Assembly: GCA_014237965.1 (NCBI GenBank)
Contig: JABABZ010000004.1
Location: 1-46,092 of the forward strand
Reading direction: 5' to 3'
DNA length: 46,092 bases
From: Phycisphaerales bacterium
Lineage (GTDB): Bacteria > Planctomycetota > Phycisphaerae > Phycisphaerales > SM1A02
Below the pieces are notes generated by a model that did not search any database, was not told the origin of the DNA, and was given only the letters and a program-made list of their open reading frames with translations. This document shows, in pieces, positions 13,048 to 34,907 of the stretch (positions are counted from its first letter, which is position 1; every line of letters starts with the position of its first letter). The position numbers and the translations under genes are program-made.

Positions 13048-15384
13048 TCAGGGTGCCGTCGGCACGAGGTCGATCACGTTCACCGGCGGTCCGGGCAGCA
13101 GCGGCGACGGTGTTCCCGCAGCCCAGGCGGCGTGACGATCCGCGAAGTGCGGCGATCGCGGGTCGCCGGATTGTCCTCCCGGCACGGTGAGGATCGCCTT
13201 CGATCGATCCGACGGCGACACGATCATTCGGGCCGAAGCACCGAACGATCCGCTCTGCACCCGCACCGCGCCCCAATGTCCCGCCTGCGGCACCGAAGGA
13301 AGATCGAAGCGGTCGCCGATCAGCGGATTGACCGCGCCGAGGGGATTCGGGAACACGCCCCGATTCCGTTCCGACCACGGCGTGTCCGGATCCTCGACGT
13401 ACGCGTCGATCGCTTTCGCCGCCGCGTCACGAAGCAACTGATCCCAGGAATCGAGATCGCCGGGGAGCAGGGAAGGGAAGCGACGTTCCAGCGTGGCGAG
13501 ACAGATGTTGTTGCCGATCGCGGAAGCGGCCGTCCGTCGTCTCGACTCGTCGATGTCGGCTTCCGACGTCACGCGGTCGAAGATCGCCGTCCGGGTTCGT
13601 CGAATCGCCGCGCGACGAAATGCTTCGATCACGGGTACCGCGAGGCTCTCGGCGGTGGCGGAGCCGTCCCAGGCGCGGACGATCTCGAGGGTGGCGTCGC
13701 GATCAGGCTCGACGGGCATCGACTCGAGCGTTTCGATCAGGAGCCGTCGGTAGGGGACGAATCGCTGGATCGTCTCGTCGAGCTGGATCGCGAGCAGATC
13801 GAGTTCGGAGGCCGGTTGCGTCGCCGCCAGGTCCTGCCGGATCCGCCAGGCGCGACCGCCGTCGGCCCAGTTGCTGCCGAGCCTCGCGGCGGATTCGAGC
13901 GGAACGAGCCGGTTGTTCGCGGTGAAGAGGAAACCCGACTCGGGATCGACCACCCGAGGGCGATCGGTTTCGGGCAGCGGACCGAACCAGCCGGTGGTCG
14001 CGTCGTGGGTCACGGGGCTTCGCCCGTCGTAGCCACGGCGATCGGGAAGCCAGCCGCTCAACGTCCAACCGATGCGACCGTCCCGATCGGCGACCAGAAC
14101 GTTCTGCGATGGGCCGTACCATCGGGCGGCCACGTCGAGTGCCGACTCCACATCGTCGACGCCACCGAGGTCGACGAGTCCGAGATTCACGGCGCCGGGC
14201 TGGTCGGAGACCCGAAGAAGACTCACCGGTCGATCCGACCAGGGTGTGTTCTCCAGCACCGGTCCCCATCGCGTCCATCGACTCTCGATGACGACGGGAT
14301 CGGCCCCGCGAACGGTGATCTCGACCTTCCGTACGTCGAACGCCTCCCATCCTTCCGGGACCCGGTATCGACCGGAATCTTCGGGATCGACGTCGATCAG
14401 CACCAGGTCCTCGAAGTCACCGGTGGTGTTGGTCAGTCCCCAGGCGATCGACTCGGTCGATCCGATCGGGAATCCCGGTACGCCCGGGATCGTGATGCCG
14501 ACCAGCTCGATCTGGTCCCAGGCGAGCGCGGCGGGGTACCAGATACCCGGGGTCGAGTACCGAAGGTGTGGATCGTTCGCGAGAATCGCGCGCCCATCGG
14601 ACGTCCGCGTTCCCGCGACCGCGAAACTGTTCGATCCGGGTCGAAGATCGGGGGCCGGCGGGTCGGCGAGCCACGCCTGCCCGTCGTCGGGTGCGGGCTT
14701 TCCGGTGGCGGGAGGGTCGGGAATGAACTCCGCGTCGGTCGGATCGATCAGCAGGGCGTCCCAGCGGCCCTGCACGCTCAGGAGCCAGGCGGCGACCTCC
14801 GCGGGAACCGTTTCCCGAAGCAGTCCGACGTTCGGTTCACGGTTCGCCGACCGCTGCAGGGTGTCGAAGAGGGCGAGCATCACGAGCACCGAGTCCGATG
14901 GACGCCACGCTTCGGGGCGGATGTTCAGCAGTCGGTATTCGGCGGGCGGAGGATCCATCGTCGCGACCGCGGCATTCACGCCCCGGGTGTAGTGCTCGAG
15001 CAACGAACGCTCGTCGGCGGGAAGCTCGGTGACGATCCGTTCGGCGATCGCGCGGCGTCGTCGGAGCGCCGGCGTTCGATCGGCGCCCACCATCGCCGGA
15101 CCGATGAGGGCGGCGAGTTCGCCCGCCACGCTTCTCCGGGTCAGGTCCATCTGGACGAGTCGATCCCGGGCATGCATGAACCCGAGTGCCGCATATGCGT
15201 CGTTCCGGTGGTCGGCGTGGATCGACGGCATCCCCAGTGCGTCCAGATCGATGCGAACCGCGTCGGCGAGGCCGACGACGGGGACGGCTTCGGAGATGGT
15301 CGCCTTCGATGGGTCGACGGGGACGCCAGCATCGAGCGTCAGGATGAGGAGGAGTGCGGAAAGGCCGGCGAGCGGGATCGACAT
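13048..15384 (-). CDS. Penicillin acylase family protein (Ntn hydrolase)
   Basis: PGSNSFAVAGTRTSDGRAILANDPHL (catalytic Ser at the beta-subunit start), GVPGFPIGSTESIAWGLTNT; start MSIPLAGLSALLLILTLDAG. Confidence 0.88.
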   Translation of the reverse strand: MSIPLAGLSALLLILTLDAGVPVDPSKATISEAVPVVGLADAVRIDLDALGMPSIHADHRNDAYAALGFMHARDRLVQMDLTRRSVAGELAALIGPAMVGADRTPALRRRRAIAERIVTELPADERSLLEHYTRGVNAAVATMDPPPAEYRLLNIRPEAWRPSDSVLVMLALFDTLQRSANREPNVGLLRETVPAEVAAWLLSVQGRWDALLIDPTDAEFIPDPPATGKPAPDDGQAWLADPPAPDLRPGSNSFAVAGTRTSDGRAILANDPHLRYSTPGIWYPAALAWDQIELVGITIPGVPGFPIGSTESIAWGLTNTTGDFEDLVLIDVDPEDSGRYRVPEGWEAFDVRKVEITVRGADPVVIESRWTRWGPVLENTPWSDRPVSLLRVSDQPGAVNLGLVDLGGVDDVESALDVAARWYGPSQNVLVADRDGRIGWTLSGWLPDRRGYDGRSPVTHDATTGWFGPLPETDRPRVVDPESGFLFTANNRLVPLESAARLGSNWADGGRAWRIRQDLAATQPASELDLLAIQLDETIQRFVPYRRLLIETLESMPVEPDRDATLEIVRAWDGSATAESLAVPVIEAFRRAAIRRTRTAIFDRVTSEADIDESRRRTAASAIGNNICLATLERRFPSLLPGDLDSWDQLLRDAAAKAIDAYVEDPDTPWSERNRGVFPNPLGAVNPLIGDRFDLPSVPQAGHWGAVRVQSGSFGASARMIVSPSDRSKAILTVPGGQSGDPRSPHFADRHAAWAAGTPSPLLPGPPVNVIDLVPTAP

Positions 15385-15440
15385 GAAAATTGCCCTGAAG
15401 TGTTCGGCGAAGGTCGCTCCCGGCACCGTAGCATGCGGAT

Positions 15441-17111
15441 ATGCCTCAGCATCGAAACAACACGGCATCTCCCTCCTCCCTGCGACCGGTCCGGTCTTTC
15501 ATCGGCGGCCCGCTCGGAATGGTCCCGGCTCAACTGGCGATTCCGGCCTTGCTGGCAGGAATGGTGCTGGCTCAAGGGTGTCGTCAGGACCCGCCTCCGC
15601 CGCCCTCCGGCGATCAGAATTCTCTCGAGAAACCCGTGGCACCAGTCGAGGCCTCCGACGAGTCGGAAACTTCCGCATCAAGACTCGTGATCACCGGGAC
15701 CACGGTCCTGACCGACTTCGCGATGGGTTCTTCCGGCCTGTGGGAATCCATGGTGCTCGAGGAGTCAACGGTGGTCATTCAGGATGGCCGTGTTTCCGGG
15801 ATCGTTCCCTCCAAGAACTTCGTCTTGTTTCCCTCCGACGTCGTGGTCACCGGCCGTGGCCGATTCGTCATGGCGGCGCCGTTGGTCGTGGGCGGCGGTG
15901 ATGGAGCCGAGGTCGGTGCCTGGTTGGAAGGCGGACGGATGATCGACGGATTGCTCTCCGGCATCGGAGGAGTGATCGTGCCGAGAGAGTTCGTCGAATC
16001 ACGCGATGGACGTTGTCTCACCGCGCGGACCCGGGATCGGGAGATCGCCGCTTCCGACCTTCTTCCGCTCGCGGAGGGTGACACGGTGCCTCCAGACGAT
16101 CTCCTGACGCTTCCGATCTCGGGCCGACTGATCGACACCTACGCGTCGGCGTTGAGTGAGCGGGTCAATGCCGGAGAGGATCACATCGGCCTGCTCGCGA
16201 CCCTCACCAGTCTGCCAGCGGCCGCCATCGGGCGCCCTTCTCTGGGTCTGGTCGAACAGGGGTCTTCCGCCAAGCTCCTGGTGTTGGACTCGAATCCCAT
16301 CGACGACCCTCGGGCGGTGTTCGAACCCTTCGCGGTCGTGGTCGGTGATCGAATCCTCCGCCGGTCGGAACTGCTGGTGCTTCGTGAGGCATCCGATCGA
16401 GGCGCGGACATGCGACGCCAGATCGCGGCGGAAGAACCTGAGGGTGAGTGGTCACCTCCCCTGCGACGCTGGCTCAGCAGCACACAGGGGCAGGTCTACG
16501 GCGGATCCGTCGCGGCCGGTGAAGCCGGTGATGTGAAGTTCGCCACGCGGACCGGACAGCCTCGGTTCGACCGGACCGTCGGATCTCTGGTGCGGAGTCC
16601 TTCGGCGGGTCGACCGAATCTCGACCTCACCTACACCGGTCCCCCGGAATCGTTCCGAATCACGACGACGCCCGACGCGGATGGTCTTGCCGTCGATCTT
16701 CAAATCGTCGATCGGCCTCGGATGACCCCCGGTTCGCCGGGACCGAATGGCGTTCCCATCGTCGACCTCGCCCTCGACCTGGATGTACGTCGTGATGCGA
16801 TGATGGCATCCACCGGTGTCTACGAGTTCGACGCTCAGGAACTGCTCTACGGCAGTGGTCCGATCGGACTCGGGCCCCGTCGATTCCGGTTGACGCCGAT
16901 CGATCCCGATTCCTGCCCCCCGTGTTTCGAGGGATTCGAGCGGGTGTGGAATCTGGAGATCTTCGATCTCGATTCAACGCCGCCGACGGTCGCCGGTGTC
17001 GCGACGGTCGCGTTTCGCGCCGGAGCACCGGCACGAGTCCGGTTTGAAGTGGGGATCGACCCGATCTGGCTCGACGAGACACCGTCGGTCGGACGAGCCC
17101 CGTTGAACTGA
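15441..17111 (+). CDS. Lipoprotein with remnant amidohydrolase composite domain, probably non-catalytic
   Basis: Lipobox LLAGMVLAQGC; LVITGTTVLT..TVVIQDGRVSGIVPS..GRGRFVMA and SLGLVEQGSSAKLLVLDSNPIDDP match the two flanks of amidohydrolases, but there is no HxH motif and the barrel is much too short. Confidence 0.6.
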   Translation: MPQHRNNTASPSSLRPVRSFIGGPLGMVPAQLAIPALLAGMVLAQGCRQDPPPPPSGDQNSLEKPVAPVEASDESETSASRLVITGTTVLTDFAMGSSGLWESMVLEESTVVIQDGRVSGIVPSKNFVLFPSDVVVTGRGRFVMAAPLVVGGGDGAEVGAWLEGGRMIDGLLSGIGGVIVPREFVESRDGRCLTARTRDREIAASDLLPLAEGDTVPPDDLLTLPISGRLIDTYASALSERVNAGEDHIGLLATLTSLPAAAIGRPSLGLVEQGSSAKLLVLDSNPIDDPRAVFEPFAVVVGDRILRRSELLVLREASDRGADMRRQIAAEEPEGEWSPPLRRWLSSTQGQVYGGSVAAGEAGDVKFATRTGQPRFDRTVGSLVRSPSAGRPNLDLTYTGPPESFRITTTPDADGLAVDLQIVDRPRMTPGSPGPNGVPIVDLALDLDVRRDAMMASTGVYEFDAQELLYGSGPIGLGPRRFRLTPIDPDSCPPCFEGFERVWNLEIFDLDSTPPTVAGVATVAFRAGAPARVRFEVGIDPIWLDETPSVGRAPLN

Positions 17112-19852: not shown

Positions 19853-20068
19853 TCAGACCGGCGTCTTGAAGCCCATGGCCCGTACCACGCACCAACCGCT
19901 CCAGCCCTCGAAAGCCATGAAACCGCCGCCGATCAGCAAGCAGGCCCCGACGATGGCCGGAATGCCTTCAAGACCTCCGAAGACGAGGGTCAGCAATCCG
20001 GCGACGAGGCAGGAGAGTCCTGAAAGGAGTCGAATGGCCTTGCCTCGGGCATCGATGTTGCATTTCAT
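19853..20068 (-). CDS. Small DUF2892-like membrane protein
   Basis: MKCNIDARGKAIRLLSGLSCLVAGLL..GACLLIGGGFMAFEGWSGWCVVRAMGFKTP, characteristic two-TM DUF2892 layout. Confidence 0.75.
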   Translation of the reverse strand: MKCNIDARGKAIRLLSGLSCLVAGLLTLVFGGLEGIPAIVGACLLIGGGFMAFEGWSGWCVVRAMGFKTPV

Positions 20069-26457: not shown

Positions 26458-27606
26458 CTACTTGTTACCCATGACGTCCCGACCGAAGAGGCCGTCGGTG
26501 GTGAGGACGTGATAACTCGTGTTCACGAGGGTGTCGTAGGAGTACTCGCCGTAGTACCCGTCGGCACCCCATTGCGTGTCGCGGCTCCACAAACCGGTCT
26601 GGCACTCGCCGGCGGTGGACGCCTGGCAGAGATTGCAGCTGTTGTTGGCCTCGGCCATCGTCTGAGCCCGGGTGTCACCTTCCATCGCGTCGCTGACGCC
26701 GACCATCGCGACGTGACCGTCGAAGAAAAGGGTGACCGGCATCGAGTTGTAGCCCTGATTGAACATCCAGCTCGGATCATCGCCTTCCGAAAAGCCGGGG
26801 TTGAAGCCGGTCTCCGTGTTCTGAAGCCAGTGGTGCTCGATCATTCGCGTCTTGAGATCGGGGAATCGGCACTGGCCCGCGGCGGGTGACCTGAAGGCCG
26901 CGGGCATCGATCGCGGGTTCCTCCAGCCACAATGGCTGTGAACTTCCGGATTGAACATGGCGGCGCCGCTCCAGACGTAGCTGGACCAGGTGATCTTCGG
27001 GTCATTCGGGTCGAGATAGAACTCGCTGGCCTGATCGAAGAAGGGCTCGACTGCCTCAAGGGCGTAGGTGTCCTTGGGGGCCCAGAACACGGGGTCGTAG
27101 AAGCGGGAGCCGACGTACGAGTTGAAGGCCTTGCCGTTGGGCGTTCGGAATCCGCCGAACTTGTAGATCGGAACGTTGTAGGAGATCGGCTGATAGATCG
27201 TGTGGAAGAAGATGCTCCACGCAAGGGGGTCGCCGGCATACGGCGGGCACAGATCACCGCCGCACCAGGCAGCCCAGGTATCACCGTTCTGATCCGTTCC
27301 AGCCACCGCTTGCGCCATGCAGGCCACGGTGCTGTTGTAGAGAACGGGGTCCGCATTCTCCACCAGCCCGATGTCATCGGGAACGGATGTGAATTGTCGG
27401 CCACCCCAATCAGCGCCATAAGTGTCGTTGGCGATACCGAGGTTTCGGAGATTTGCCGATGACTGGGTCACCCGCGCGGCATCCCGGGCCTTCCCGATGG
27501 CGGGTAGGAGAATGGCGATCAGCAGGGCGATGATCGAAATCACCACCAAGAGCTCGACGATCGTGAAGCCTGGCGATCGGAGTTGGTTGAACTTGGGCGT
27601 TGGCAT
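26458..27606 (-). CDS. Prepilin-like (type II pseudopilin) protein, copy 1
   Basis: [45 protein letters not shown]-methylation/cleavage motif; [29 protein letters not shown] near the end. Confidence 0.88.
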
Positions 27607-27825
27607 CGGGGTCGGACCTCGTCGTGAGTGGCGAATCAGCATCCTGTGGGTACCCACAGCTGGCCATTCGTTCCCTCAAGATAGACCATCTCCAGCGGCT
27701 TCGGAAGCGACGAATGGCGGGTTTTCACGCCGAGACACCGCTCTGGTGCAGGAAGGCGGGTTTCACGTCTGTATAAGTCGGTCGAGCGGGGCCGAACGGC
27801 GGAGTATTCAGCTTTTGGAAAAAGA

Positions 27826-27931: not shown

Positions 27932-29074
27932 TCACTTCTTGCCAAACACGTCACGGCCGAGAAGGCCATCGGTGGTGAGGATGACGGCGCTGGTATCGAC
28001 CAGCGTGTCATAGCTGAGGCTGCCGTAGTAACCGTTGGTACCCTTGGGCGTATCACGACTCCAGAGTCCGGTCTGGCAATCGCCATTGCCGTCGCAGTTG
28101 CCGCAGACGTCGTTGGCTTCGGCCTGCGTCGTTGCACGAGTGTCGCCTTCCATGAAGTCACTCGTACCGATCATGGCGACGTGACCGTCGAAGAATGCAG
28201 TCATGGGCTTCGAGTTGTAGCCATGGTTGAACATCCAGCTCGGGTCGGAGCCACCGAATGACGGGTTCGCGTCGGTCTCGACGTTCTGCAGCCAGTGATG
28301 CTCGATCATGCGGACCTTGAGATCCGGGAATCGACACTGACCGATCGAGGGGCTTCGGAATGCACCGGGGAAGTTGTTGCCGTAGGGGCTGGTGTAGCCA
28401 CAGTGGCTGAGCACTTCCGGGGCCCACATCGCCGCGGGGCTCCAGACGTAACTGGAGTACGCGATGACCTGGCTCGAGGAGTTCTCGGGGCTGTAGGGGT
28501 TGAACTCATCGGGGTAGTTGAAGAAGGGCTCCGCGATTCGCAGCGGATAGGTGTCCTTGGGGGCCCAGAACACGGGGTCGTACCAGCGGTCGCCGACGTA
28601 GCTGGCGAAAGCCTTGCAGGTGGGGACGCGGAATGAACCGAAGTCGCCACCGCTGAAGCCGTAGGCCTGGAAGACGTAGTAGAAGCAACCGTTCCAGTAA
28701 CCGGCATCACCGGGGAAGCCGTTGCAGAGGCTGCCAGCACACCACCAGCCCCAGAGGCGTCCGAGGTAGTCGTAGCCGACGAGCTGCTGCGGCATGCAGG
28801 CGATCTGGTTGTTGTAATCGACGGGTCCGAGGCCGTTCGCGAAGGCGAGGCCCATGTCGTCAGGAAGCGCGGTGAACTGTCGGTCACCCCAGTCAGCGCC
28901 ATACGTATCGTTGGCAACCGAGAGGTTTCGAAGGTTCGCGGCGGACTGCGTGACGCGTGCGGCGTCTCGAGCCTTGCCGATGGCCGGCAACAGAATGGCA
29001 ATGAGCAGTGCGATGATCGAGATCACCACCAGCAGCTCGACAATAGTGAAGCCTGGACGATTCTTTTGCTTCAT
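27932..29074 (-). CDS. Prepilin-like (type II pseudopilin) protein, copy 2
   Basis: [51 protein letters not shown]; paralogous to 26458-27606 throughout. Confidence 0.88.
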
Positions 29075-29569
29075 GATTGAAGACTCCGTTTCTGGCTTGC
29101 CCGGTTGCACACCGACAAACACTTCCGTGAAAGTGGAATGGGGACTGTGGAATCAGGCGGAGAAATGTGTGCAATGCCTGATTGTGGAAGCCCGTGTAGT
29201 TCAAAAGATACCGGATCTGATGCGAATCTCAACCAGCCAACTGCAAAAGTGGATGATTCGTTCGTTGCCGCGACGACGCTTCGTCCGCCGCTGAGTGTGC
29301 ATGAGAGACCGATAAAAAGTACCTCAGGTCAAAAGAAGAGTGGAATTTGTCCGAACGGAATGATGTTGCCTCGGAGTCGAGGCGTCGGGAGGCCCAGGGG
29401 AGATATGAAGAGGGGGCCTCCGCTCTCCTCATGAGTTCGCTCACGAGCGCGGAAAGTTCCCCGATTCTCGCATCTAAGTGCATATTGGGACGGCACTTTG
29501 AGGTTCTCGGGGGTCTGGCCTGCTGGCTGGCGGGGTCACGCGGAGGCCTGTCCGGCTATGTTTCGCCGG

Positions 29570-30703
29570 ATGCCAGAAACCCGCACGTCATCTGATCGCG
29601 GACCGAGCCTGGTGGGGACCTGGTCGTTCTCCCTGGCGGCAATCGAGTCGGCATGGAGCATCCTCCTTGGCGGCAACTCGTCCCAGGATGATCGGGCGGC
29701 GGGTGATTCCGAGTCGAATTCATGCGTGCTCGATGCGATCGAGGCTGCCTGTCGGCATGCCGATCTCGATCAGGGCGTCGACAGCGTCGGGATCGGGGGG
29801 CTTCCGGATTCCAGCGGCCGCATGAGTCTCGATGGAGCCATCATGGAATCCCCAGTCCGATTCGCCGGGGTCGCCGCGCTTCGTCGTCATCTTCATCCGG
29901 TTTCCGTGGCCCGTCTGGTGATGGAGCGGACCGAGCACACGTTGCTGTGCGGAGACGACGCCGATGAATTCGCGGACCGCCATGCCGCGACGGCTCGGGA
30001 TCTGCTCTCGGACGAGGCCAGAGAAGCCTTCGAGAAATGGAAGGCGTCCCGCCGGGATGGCTCCGCCGACCCGATCGATCAGAGCAAGGATGGATCGCTC
30101 CTGGGTCTTCGTCCGCTCGACCCTGGCCTTGGCGGCGAATCCGCCGGAAGACTCTTCCGTCCGAACACCGGCCGGGAAGGGGCGGCGCCAGCGGGACATG
30201 ACACGATCGGCGTGCTCGGTCGCGACGCGGCCGGCAACCTCGCCGCGGGCTGCTCCACCAGCGGACTGCCATTCAAGGTCCCCGGGCGGGTCGGAGATTC
30301 GCCGATCGCGGGCCATGGCCTCTTCGTGCAGCCCGAGGTGGGATCCGCCACGGCGACGGGAACCGGCGAGTTGATTTCAGGAATCTGTGCGAGTTTCGTG
30401 GCGGTCGAGACGCTCCGCCGGGGAGGGACGCTTCTGGACGCGGTGCGCGAAGTCATGTTGCGGATCGATGAGCTCGGGCCATTGCGGCCGCATCATCAAG
30501 TGGCGGTGATCGTGATGGATGCCTTCGGCAACGTCGCCTCCGGCGCCTACCGGCCGGGATTCCTCATCGCGACCCGCGACGAAGGAGGCGGTAGGGTGTC
30601 CGGTCCCGATCTGGTCCATCGTCCCGAGGATGACGGACTCCCGGAATCCGCTCGCGACGGTCTGGCGAAGAACGACCGCCAGGAATCAAAGGACGACCCA
30701 TGA
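29570..30703 (+). CDS. N4-(beta-N-acetylglucosaminyl)-L-asparaginase-like Ntn hydrolase
   Basis: VDSVGIGGLPDSSGRMSLDGAIM; HDTIGVLGRDAAGNLAAGCSTSGLPFKVPGRVGDSPIAGHGLF (autocleavage Thr region); TGTGELI. Start uncertain (29558 or 29570). Confidence 0.85.
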   Translation: MPETRTSSDRGPSLVGTWSFSLAAIESAWSILLGGNSSQDDRAAGDSESNSCVLDAIEAACRHADLDQGVDSVGIGGLPDSSGRMSLDGAIMESPVRFAGVAALRRHLHPVSVARLVMERTEHTLLCGDDADEFADRHAATARDLLSDEAREAFEKWKASRRDGSADPIDQSKDGSLLGLRPLDPGLGGESAGRLFRPNTGREGAAPAGHDTIGVLGRDAAGNLAAGCSTSGLPFKVPGRVGDSPIAGHGLFVQPEVGSATATGTGELISGICASFVAVETLRRGGTLLDAVREVMLRIDELGPLRPHHQVAVIVMDAFGNVASGAYRPGFLIATRDEGGGRVSGPDLVHRPEDDGLPESARDGLAKNDRQESKDDP

Positions 30704-31272
30704 AGCTCTACACCCGAACCGGTGATGATGGAAAGACTGGACTGTTCTCCGGCGATCGAGTCGGCAAGGATCATCCCCGGATCGAGGCCTACGGGACCGT
30801 CGATGAGTTGAATGCCTGCATCGGTCTGGCGATCGCCGGAATCGACGGCACCGATGATGCCGCGGCGATGCTTCGTTCGAGCCTCGTGTCGATTCAGTCG
30901 CGGTGCTTCGATCTCGGTGCCGATCTCGCCACTCCCGAGGGCGCGAAGAACAGCGACAAGGTCGGCCGAATCGATGACTCGGATGTCGTCGTGCTCGAAG
31001 GTTTGATCGACCACTACCAGGCCGCGGCACCGGAGATCCGGTGTTTCGTGCTTCCGGGAGGGTGCGAACTCGCCGCTCGGCTGCACATCGCTCGGACCGT
31101 CTGTCGTCGAGCGGAGCGGTTGATGGTGCATCTGAACCATGCCGAGACGGTGACCCCCGAGGCGATTCGCTGGGTGAATCGACTCAGCGATCTGCTCTTC
31201 GCGATGAGTCGCGCCGTCAATCACGCGGCCGGGCTCGAGGATGTTCCGTGGGAGCCCAAGGGCGGCGCCTGA
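30700..31272 (+). CDS. ATP:cob(I)alamin adenosyltransferase (PduO type)
   Basis: [72 protein letters not shown]; ATGA overlap with the upstream gene. Confidence 0.93.
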   Translation: [190 protein letters not shown]

Positions 31273-31281
31273 CGCGGACTC

Positions 31282-32292
31282 TCAAGAGCGTTTCTTCGAC
31301 CGCGGCTTTCCGATGGCGCTCGAACCGCCGCTCGAAAGCCCTTTTCGCAACATCCCGATCTTCGAGATCCGCTCCCAGGCGTTCTCGGCATTCCCCGCTC
31401 CGAATTCGGTCGTGATCGAACGGCGATTCCAGGCTTTCGCCACGGTGGAGGTCGTTCCGCTTCCGCAGAAAGGATCGAGAACCAGCCCGCCCTCGTTCGA
31501 ACAGGCCAGGATGATCCGCTCCAGGTAGACCTCGGGAATCTGGTTGTGGTGCTGCGGTCGGCGTTCCTTGTTGTTGCCCTGAATTCGACCCCAGTAGGGG
31601 CCGTACCAGACGTCCATCGGTACTCGCATTCCGGCATTGCGGTCCTTGGCCTGGGTTCGCGCGTCGTTGTAGATCGAGGCGCGGTCCGACTGCTAGAGGA
31701 TGGAGTCCGGGTTCCAGATCCGGTTGTCGGCGTCCTTGGCGAAGTACAAGACGTGAACCTTGCTCATGATGAAAGAGCTGTCGCGATGCTGGCCGAATCG
31801 AAAATGCCAGGCGCACCAGTTGATCATCGTGAGACCTCTTCTCTTCAAGTGCATCACGATTTCCGCGGCGGTGTCGTCGGGGATGTTCACCCAGATCGAA
31901 CCGTTCGGCGCCAGGGCGTCGACGCACACGTCGAGCCAGTCGAATGTGAATCGTTCGTATTCGGCGCGAGGCATGCCGTCGGACCACTCGTCGTAGGGCA
32001 CGTCCCAGTTGAACGGAGGGTCCGCGAAGATCAGGTCGACCTGGCCGTGGTCGGGCAGATTCGGAATCACGTCCCGGCAATCGCCGACGTAGAGCCGGGT
32101 GTCGGGATCATCGGAATGGTGGACGGGTTCGACCGCGGTGTTCGCCGGCACGTGGGGCGCGACTTCATCACCGAGCAGTCGGATGTCGGCCGCCGGCATC
32201 CCGGCCGCGGACTCCCGTTGTATCTGAGTCGCTCCGCGGGGGGTCGCATAGCCCCCGGGGCGATCGAATTCGGTGTTCTTCCGTTCGGCCAT
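31282..32292 (-). pseudogene. Site-specific DNA methyltransferase (N6-A/N4-C type) interrupted by an in-frame TAG
   Basis: 5' part has LYVGDCRDVIPNLPDHGQVDLIFADPPFNWDVPYDEW (DPPF motif IV); 3' part has VYLERIILACSNEGGLVLDPFCGSGTTSTVAKAWNRRSITTE (motif I). Same frame on both sides of TAG at 31693-31695. Confidence 0.85.
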
Positions 32293-32385
32293 GCGGCGAT
32301 GATCGCCGATTCCGTGGCCTCGCGCCACTCTCGAACGGTAAACCACAGAACCCGGAGGATTCCGGGTCGCGGAGCGGCCTGGATG

Positions 32386-33030
32386 TCAGATGGTGCCGAA
32401 GACCCGGTCACCGGCATCGCCCAGCCCGGGAACGATGTACGCAAGATCGTTGAGTCGATCGTCCAGCGCCGCGGCGTGCACCTCGACATCGGGATGATCT
32501 TCGATCATTCGCTGCACCCCTTCGGGCGCCGCCACCAGGCAGAGGAATCGGATCGTTCCACAACCTCGCTTCTTCAGGTACCTCACGGCGTAGGTCGCAC
32601 TTCCCCCGGTCGCGAGCATCGGATCGACCACGAGGACCGGACCGTCGGCGATGTCGGCGGGAAGCTTCTCGTAGTACTCGACGGGCTGATGCGTCTCTTC
32701 GTTTCGTTGCACGCCGATGTGGCCGACTCTGGATTCCGGCACGAGCCGGAGCATTCCATCGGTCATGCCGAGGCCCGCGCGGAGGATCGGAACGATGGTG
32801 ACGGGTGCGGCGAGTTCGGTGGCGTCGCAATCATCGATCGGAGTCCGCACGCGGCAGGCCCTGGTCGGTAGATCTCGAAGCGCCTCATAGGTCATGAGCC
32901 CGGCGATTTCGCCGAGCACCCGCCGAAACGTGGGTGGCGGAGTGGTGGCGTCGCGAAGAATGCCCAACTTGTGTCCGATCAGGGGGTGGTCGTGGGTGAG
33001 CAGGTTCGGATGACCGGGCGTTCGTCGCAT
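32386..33030 (-). CDS. upp: Uracil phosphoribosyltransferase
   Basis: [70 protein letters not shown]. Confidence 0.95.
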
Positions 33031-33053: not shown

Positions 33054-34907
33054 TCACATTCTCGTCGGCGCACCGATGCCGAGCGTTCCGAGTCCGTCTC
33101 GGAGGACGTTCCGAGTGAGTCGGACCAGACGGATCCGGGCGTTTCGCACTCCGTCATCCTCGGCTTTCAGCACCGGGCATGCCGAGTAGAAGGAATTGAA
33201 TTCGGTGGCGACCCCGTAGAGGTAGCGGCAGAGACGACTGGCTTCAAGCGATTGAGCCGCGGCGTACATGGTGGCCGGGTATCGGAGCAGGAGCAGGGCG
33301 AGCCGGCGTTCCTCCGGCGTTTCGACGCGGAATGAAGCGTCGGTGTCCGCGTCGTCGCCCGCCTTCTCGAGCATCGAGCAGAGTCTCGCATGGGCGTATT
33401 GAAGGTACGGCCCGGTGTCTCCCTCGAAGGCGATCATGCGGTCGAGGTCGAATACGTAGTCTCTCGCCGAGTCGCCCGAGAGATCCGCGTACTTGATCGC
33501 GGCGATTCCGACGGCGCGTCCGATCGCGGCGAGTTCAGCCTCGGGAAGTCCATGGGTCGGGGCGTGGGGTTCGGCCGCCCGCATGGTGACCGCTTCGGTG
33601 CCTCGATCGACCGCGGCCTGCAGAAGATCCATCAATTTGAAATTGGCGCCGGACCGCGTCTTGAGGGGTTTCTTGTCCGGGCCGAGCACCGTGCCGAATC
33701 CGAGATGGACGAGTTCGGATTCCACACCGTCCGGGAGCGTGGCCCAGCCGATCTTCCGGCAGGCATCGAAGACGTCTCGGAAGTGATCGCGTTGGCGGGC
33801 ATCGACCACGTAGATGACTTCGTCACTGTCGAGTTCCTGAACCCGGTATCGAAGAGCGGCGAGGTCGGTGGTCGCGTAGAGAAAGCCGCCGTCTCGCTTG
33901 CGAATGAGCATGGGGCGATCCCGGTCGTCGAAACGGACCACCAGTGCGCCGTCGTCTTCGACCGCGAGTTCGGAACGGACGAAGGCATCGACGACTTCCG
34001 AGAGTTCGTCTCGAAAACTGGACTCGCCCCGTTCACTGTCCGGAGCGATTCCGGTTCCGAGAAGGTCGCAGGCGAGGTAGACCTCCTTCATCGTGACTTC
34101 GATCAGGCGTTTCCAGGCGGCGACCATCTCCGGGTCGCCGGACTGCAGGCGGACCAGCGCTTCGCGGGCCGCGGCCTGCGCGTCACCGGCGCTTTCCTTC
34201 TGGGCCTCGAGTTCGGTGATCCGGTGGGGACCACAAAGGTTGGCGATCGCGGCCTCCAGCCCGCGATCATCACCGCGGGCTTCAAGCTGGGCGTCCCGAT
34301 AGGCGACGTTCAAGGTGTCCAGGTCGAGGGCCTCGAAGTCCACCTTCCGACTCAAGAGCGAGTGGAGGGTCATCGCGATGGGGAGCCCCCAGTCGCCGAG
34401 GTGATTCTGTCGATGAACCGTCCGTCCGATCCGTTCGAAGAGCCTGGCCACGGTGTCACCGATGACGGTGGAGCGGAGGTGGCCGACATGCATCTGCTTC
34501 GCGACGTTGACGCCGCAGACGTCGATCGTCACGCCGTGCGGCTTGTCCTCGGGTTCGATTCCGAGCTTCTCATCGTCCATGCCCGCGAGTGCGACCGCCA
34601 GAGCGTCGGGTTCGAGGCGGAGATTCAGAAAACCCGGACCGGCGATCTCCGGCTCGGCGATCACCCCCTGCAGTCCGAGGGCGGGGGCCATCAGGGCGGC
34701 GGCGAGATCCGCCGCGACGTCGCGAGGCTTTCGGCCGAGTTTCTTGGCGAGGGCCATCGCGGCATTCAGCTGGTAGTCGCCGAATTCGGGCTTCGCGCTG
34801 GGCTTGAGGGCGGTGTCGACACCGATCGCGGCATCGCCACCGACCGCTTCAACAGCGGCGACGGCGGCGGCTTCGACCCTGACCACGGGATCCTGGACGG
34901 CGTTCAT
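33054..34907 (-). CDS. argS: Arginyl-tRNA synthetase
   Basis: VNVAKQMHVGHLRSTVIGDTVARLFERIGRTVHRQNHLGDWG; IKYADLSGDSARDYVFDLDRMIAFEGDTGPYLQYAHARL. Confidence 0.95.
   Translation of the reverse strand: MNAVQDPVVRVEAAAVAAVEAVGGDAAIGVDTALKPSAKPEFGDYQLNAAMALAKKLGRKPRDVAADLAAALMAPALGLQGVIAEPEIAGPGFLNLRLEPDALAVALAGMDDEKLGIEPEDKPHGVTIDVCGVNVAKQMHVGHLRSTVIGDTVARLFERIGRTVHRQNHLGDWGLPIAMTLHSLLSRKVDFEALDLDTLNVAYRDAQLEARGDDRGLEAAIANLCGPHRITELEAQKESAGDAQAAAREALVRLQSGDPEMVAAWKRLIEVTMKEVYLACDLLGTGIAPDSERGESSFRDELSEVVDAFVRSELAVEDDGALVVRFDDRDRPMLIRKRDGGFLYATTDLAALRYRVQELDSDEVIYVVDARQRDHFRDVFDACRKIGWATLPDGVESELVHLGFGTVLGPDKKPLKTRSGANFKLMDLLQAAVDRGTEAVTMRAAEPHAPTHGLPEAELAAIGRAVGIAAIKYADLSGDSARDYVFDLDRMIAFEGDTGPYLQYAHARLCSMLEKAGDDADTDASFRVETPEERRLALLLLRYPATMYAAAQSLEASRLCRYLYGVATEFNSFYSACPVLKAEDDGVRNARIRLVRLTRNVLRDGLGTLGIGAPTRM

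Follow-up and report, generated by a model that had tools for sequence, protein, structure and literature searches.

Does an in-frame amber codon inside a DNA methyltransferase gene of a marine planctomycete of the Phycisphaera type (order Phycisphaerales) record the loss of an enzyme, a change in the way UAG is decoded, or a base that living cells do not carry? The gene lies in a window of 46,092 nucleotides, the whole stretch of DNA analysed here, from a fragmentary metagenome-assembled genome (326 contigs, 83.7% complete). A first reading, made from the sequence alone, had described a methyltransferase split by a single TAG and had left five causes open: a recent lesion, phase variation, suppression, recoding and sequence error.

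The minus-strand frame 32346-31282 holds a single internal stop, the TAG at 31693-31695, ahead of its terminal TGA at 31282-31284. As the sequence MAERKN is conserved in relatives, the natural start is the ATG at 32292-32290 and not the GTG at 32346, giving a gene of 336 codons (31282-32292, minus strand) which is uninterrupted and of full length in relatives and is interrupted here at codon 200. The stop separates the catalytic motif IV, DPPF (residues 91-94; 32011-32022), which is invariant, from the SAM-binding motif I, DPFCGSGTT (residues 273-281; 31450-31476), which lies 3' of it. The 21 codons 3' of the TAG encode QSDRASIYNDARTQAKDRNAG, continuing into MRVPMDVWYGPYWGRIQGNNKERR. The sequence-only reading was correct in its coordinates, in the 21-codon peptide and in placing the two motifs on opposite sides of the stop. 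Both parts of the gene match PF01555 above its curated cut-off of 26.7 bits: residues 85-193, before the stop, cover profile positions 1-113 (E 5.8e-14, 53 bits), and the part after the stop covers positions 123-212 (E 4.9e-21, 76 bits). The sole in-frame restart considered is the ATG at residue 222, which opens a downstream ORF (31282-31629, minus strand) devoid of motif IV.

Motif IV (DPPF) precedes motif I (DPF.GSGTT), the order of the beta class, and both motifs are invariant but for one residue of motif I. A phmmer search with an intact relative returned the beta-class N6-adenine methyltransferases MboIIA, M.BceJIV, RsrI and CcrM with E values of 1e-17 to 1e-21. The same four enzymes were the top Foldseek matches of an alignment-based model of an intact relative (pLDDT 77.5; a single-sequence model with pLDDT 33 was discarded), which adopts an N6-adenine methyltransferase fold. 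Orthology to CcrM, the cell-cycle GANTC methyltransferase, was rejected, since the NCBIfam equivalog NF050803 gave 89 bits, far short of the 830 set as its cut-off. Elsewhere in the genome a second DNA methyltransferase-like protein, 34% identical to the interrupted one, is encoded near a contig end (G000:C111:50077-50733, where G000 denotes this genome).

The gene sits among housekeeping genes in conserved order. Upstream are upp, for uracil phosphoribosyltransferase (32386-33030, minus strand), and argS, for arginyl-tRNA synthetase (33054-34907, minus strand); downstream, a convergent cobalamin adenosyltransferase gene (30700-31272, plus strand) stops some 10 bases short of the end of the methyltransferase gene and is followed by asparaginase. 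Genes lost at contig ends excepted, this order is shared by the window and 12 near relatives, and no restriction gene adjoins the methyltransferase in any of them. The enzyme is thus a putative orphan by genomic context, as had been proposed from the window alone, and belongs to an orphan family that is widespread in Phycisphaerales, with gene order conserved in the closest relatives. When 36 members of the family were sampled, about 10 had no good orthologue, and eight of those are at least 90% complete; loss of the gene is therefore tolerated, and the methyltransferase appears dispensable in the family. At another place in the window, an 806-residue ORF (13048-15468, minus strand) is 63% identical to its counterpart in the nearest relative whilst its neighbours are 87-95% identical, which suggests replacement or fast evolution.

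Comparison with relatives identifies the codon that the TAG has replaced. Across 83 aligned rows from Phycisphaerales (47-97% identity, including some duplicates where the same record occurs in two collections), the codon at this position reads GAG in 54 and GAA in 29, and is a stop in none; among these rows are the 45 of the curated alignment, all 45 with Glu. GAG is also what the nearest genome has (TMED9, 97% identical in amino acids; G002 below), so the lesion is one private G-to-T transversion. The remainder of the gene is intact. Alignment to G002 and to two further genomes, G005 and G006, uncovered no frameshift or other decay, in agreement with the sequence-only reading; 99 columns are invariant among relatives, and E200 is the only one altered, with none of the other 98 changed. 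Neither a second lesion in the gene nor a simple repeat at the stop site was found. From the nearest relative the gene differs by 9 nonsynonymous and 56 synonymous changes, a ratio like that of other pairs at this depth, and the missense changes fall at tolerant sites, in states mostly present in other relatives. The coding sequence therefore does not have the appearance of a pseudogene that is ageing, and the stop, if real, would be recent. A parsimony count had suggested relaxed selection, with 8 nonsynonymous to 14 synonymous changes on the window branch against 0 to 20 on the sister branch. It was not used to date the stop, since the pairwise ratio is normal and the substitutions fall at tolerant positions. 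The totals that it gave for other genes were left aside as well, because three of the genes (g13, g23 and argS) had been wrongly set up or had diverged badly.

A survey of nonsense changes places this codon in the context of the genome. Some 591 kb of this genome was compared with 1.34 Mb of the nearest one. This sampled about one fifth of the genome and yielded about 61,000 aligned codons from frames whose substitutions follow a coding-like pattern, a part of these frames being antisense. A single other clear interior nonsense change emerged, a GAG-to-TAG at G000:C122:19890 in secA, which lies outside the window and was thus not visible to the sequence-only reading. There, two adjacent codons are altered (19887-19892), GAC to TAC and GAG to TAG, so that a second G-to-T lies three bases upstream of the first. 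Beyond the TAG the frame stays open for 134 codons. Among 40 genomes with a match, no other stop is reported inside secA; the gene is intact at this point in the relatives checked, although the residue at the position varies between Glu, Gln and Arg. Other apparent interior stops (C111:626, C66:403/451, C111:20217, C255:8023/8377, C263:2320, C111:14819 and, in G002, C37:9099) were judged from codon-phase substitution patterns, open opposite frames or position to lie in antisense frames or upstream of the real start, C255:8023/8377 being the least certain.

The secA change is the more difficult to accommodate. SecA is needed for viability, its catalytic core spans approximately residues 1-832, and the truncations shown to complement retain that core (PMC6620043). 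Counted from the alignment, the stop corresponds to about E. coli residue 805, within the catalytic core, and cuts the scaffold domain. It should be damaging, judged from the position of the cut. Since a stop there is hard to square with a living cell, the secA stop, at least, is probably not fixed in living cells.

With two such changes in a fragmentary metagenome-assembled genome, one of them in a gene that should not tolerate it, we favour the view that the methyltransferase TAG arose as an error of base calling or of the consensus, or represents a minority allele, and is not fixed in living cells, and give this a probability of about one half. The simplest account would give both genes one cause, a consensus that contains errors or has picked up minority alleles. 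The private G-to-T would then belong to the consensus of one assembly, whilst the enzyme of the real population, an ordinary orphan N6-adenine DNA methyltransferase made as a single chain, would probably be complete and carry Glu at position 200. Read as it stands, the sequence would instead specify a 199-residue fragment carrying the catalytic motif and missing the SAM-binding motif, which should be inactive. Of the five causes left open by the sequence-only reading, error is thus retained, as is a recent lesion; phase variation, suppression and recoding gained no support.

Nearly as likely as error or a minority allele, though held only tentatively, is a real and recent nonsense mutation which inactivated a dispensable orphan methyltransferase in the species or strain, the fragment being degraded or inert, the downstream half not made and the methylation mark lost. 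A lone substitution with no other decay is what would be expected soon after such an event, and the absence of the gene from part of the family makes a real null quite possible. The spectrum of substitutions also bears on the choice. In about 201 kb of aligned blocks, G>T/C>A changes in the direction from G002 to G000 number 1747 against 1481 in reverse, whereas transitions run the opposite way (4883 against 5474). This excess reflects either a mutation bias particular to the lineage or a slight signal of error. Counted by codon position, the ratio is 231:174 at position 1, 101:91 at position 2 and 618:491 at position 3. It looks more like lineage bias than error, because the excess grows with the divergence of the codon position, as real mutation would have it, while random error would be uniform; this counts against the error reading and for a genuine mutation. 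The secA truncation, too, could be tolerated. Against a recent null, the same class of change in an essential gene of the same assembly is left uncovered, and comparison with pairs of equal depth gives no positive sign of relaxed selection.

Should the bases be genuine and neither protein dispensable, what is left is amber suppression or partial recoding, in which UAG is read as Glu or another residue and both the methyltransferase and SecA are made at full length. Both interior nonsense codons are TAG in place of GAG, one of them in an essential gene, and conserved stretches follow both stops. Two out of two being TAG, where the expected share among one-step nonsense changes is 0.52, gives a weak lean in the same direction. 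The decoding apparatus points the other way. No tRNA with a CUA anticodon, the suppressor that the sequence-only reading had suggested looking for, was present among the 40 tRNAs found in the 83.7%-complete genome; as tRNA-Glu(CUC) and several other tRNAs also escaped detection in a genome that is 84% complete, a suppressor may have gone unseen. Contig C263 of G000 encodes a homologue of RF1 that bears the PAT motif, with a score of 351 bits where the curated threshold is 423, and the genome also has a homologue of release factor 2, which bears SPF. TAG still terminates genes: at 122 positions where the nearest relative's ORFs end, this genome has TGA in 114, TAG in 8 and TAA in none, whilst TAG occurs in frame only twice in about 61,000 codons, far below what reassignment would produce. 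According to PMC8629427, moreover, all known bacterial stop codon changes reassign UGA. None of the marks of amber recoding that were sought (a tRNA-CUA, loss or change of RF1, and TAG that no longer terminates and is frequent in frame) was found in this 83.7%-complete genome, and genome-wide recoding was rejected on the tRNAs, RF1 and TAG terminators, bearing out the argument against genome-wide reassignment already made from the window. Suppression or partial recoding is accordingly improbable. A little less probable again is its early-stage form, in which a suppressor tRNA or near-cognate reading would insert Glu or another residue at UAG at a low level whilst RF1 and the TAG terminators are kept.

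Two observations on stop codons and TAG use may be recorded here. The use of stop codons at the sampled ORF ends, with TGA so dominant and TAA absent, is extreme. Within the window, two adjacent minus-strand genes (26458-27657 and 27932-29122) encode an N-terminal prepilin-type methylation motif, and the first of them terminates in TAG at the place where the nearest relative's ORF ends.

It is very unlikely that the halves are translated separately, the second from the ATG at 31629, and then assembled in the manner of some two-subunit methyltransferases. That ATG does lie 21 codons past the stop and is preceded by AAGGA. However, every relative that spans the site encodes a single chain, in answer to the sequence-only reading, which had looked to relatives for independent subunits; the apparent halves in one genome (G031) sit at contig ends. 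The residue at the restart is Met or Leu across relatives and is not conserved as a start, and the stretch of 21 codons ahead of it, which is itself conserved methyltransferase sequence, would be lost. Some bacterial methyltransferases are phase-variable, but slipped-strand mispairing or inversion is hardly credible here, the lesion being a substitution and not an indel, with no simple repeat at the site and no variant copies in relatives.

Taken together, the locus presents an ordinary single-base nonsense change, whether artefact or recent loss, and the orphan methyltransferase that carries it is typical in other respects. It also carries a caution, namely that an in-frame stop in one draft metagenome-assembled genome needs to be compared with relatives and with essential genes before recoding is proposed. 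Were the TAG to be decoded after all, it would be one of the rare examples of amber suppression occurring naturally in a bacterium that lives freely.

A number of parallels can be drawn with known systems. With CcrM (6pbd), M.BceJIV (8urk), M.MboIIA (1g60) and M.RsrI (1nw8) the methyltransferase shares the PF01555 domain, the placing of DPPF before DPF.GSGTT and the same fold (Foldseek E 1e-15 to 1e-13, TM 0.53-0.60 by query). Identity to these enzymes is only about 25%, and the N-terminal extension, MAERKN...FDRPGGYA, falls outside the alignments to them. Solitary methyltransferases, as surveyed in The Epigenomic Landscape of Prokaryotes (PMC4752239), resemble the present one in having no adjoining restriction gene and in housekeeping neighbours of conserved order; it differs from them in that its activity is predicted and in that the gene is absent from part of the family. 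Finally, the locus resembles pseudogenes that owe their nonsense codon to a single base, and likewise the consensus errors of draft genomes: one substitution creates a stop, the remainder of the gene is intact and relatives are uninterrupted. The only distinction is that secA in this assembly carries another change of that type.
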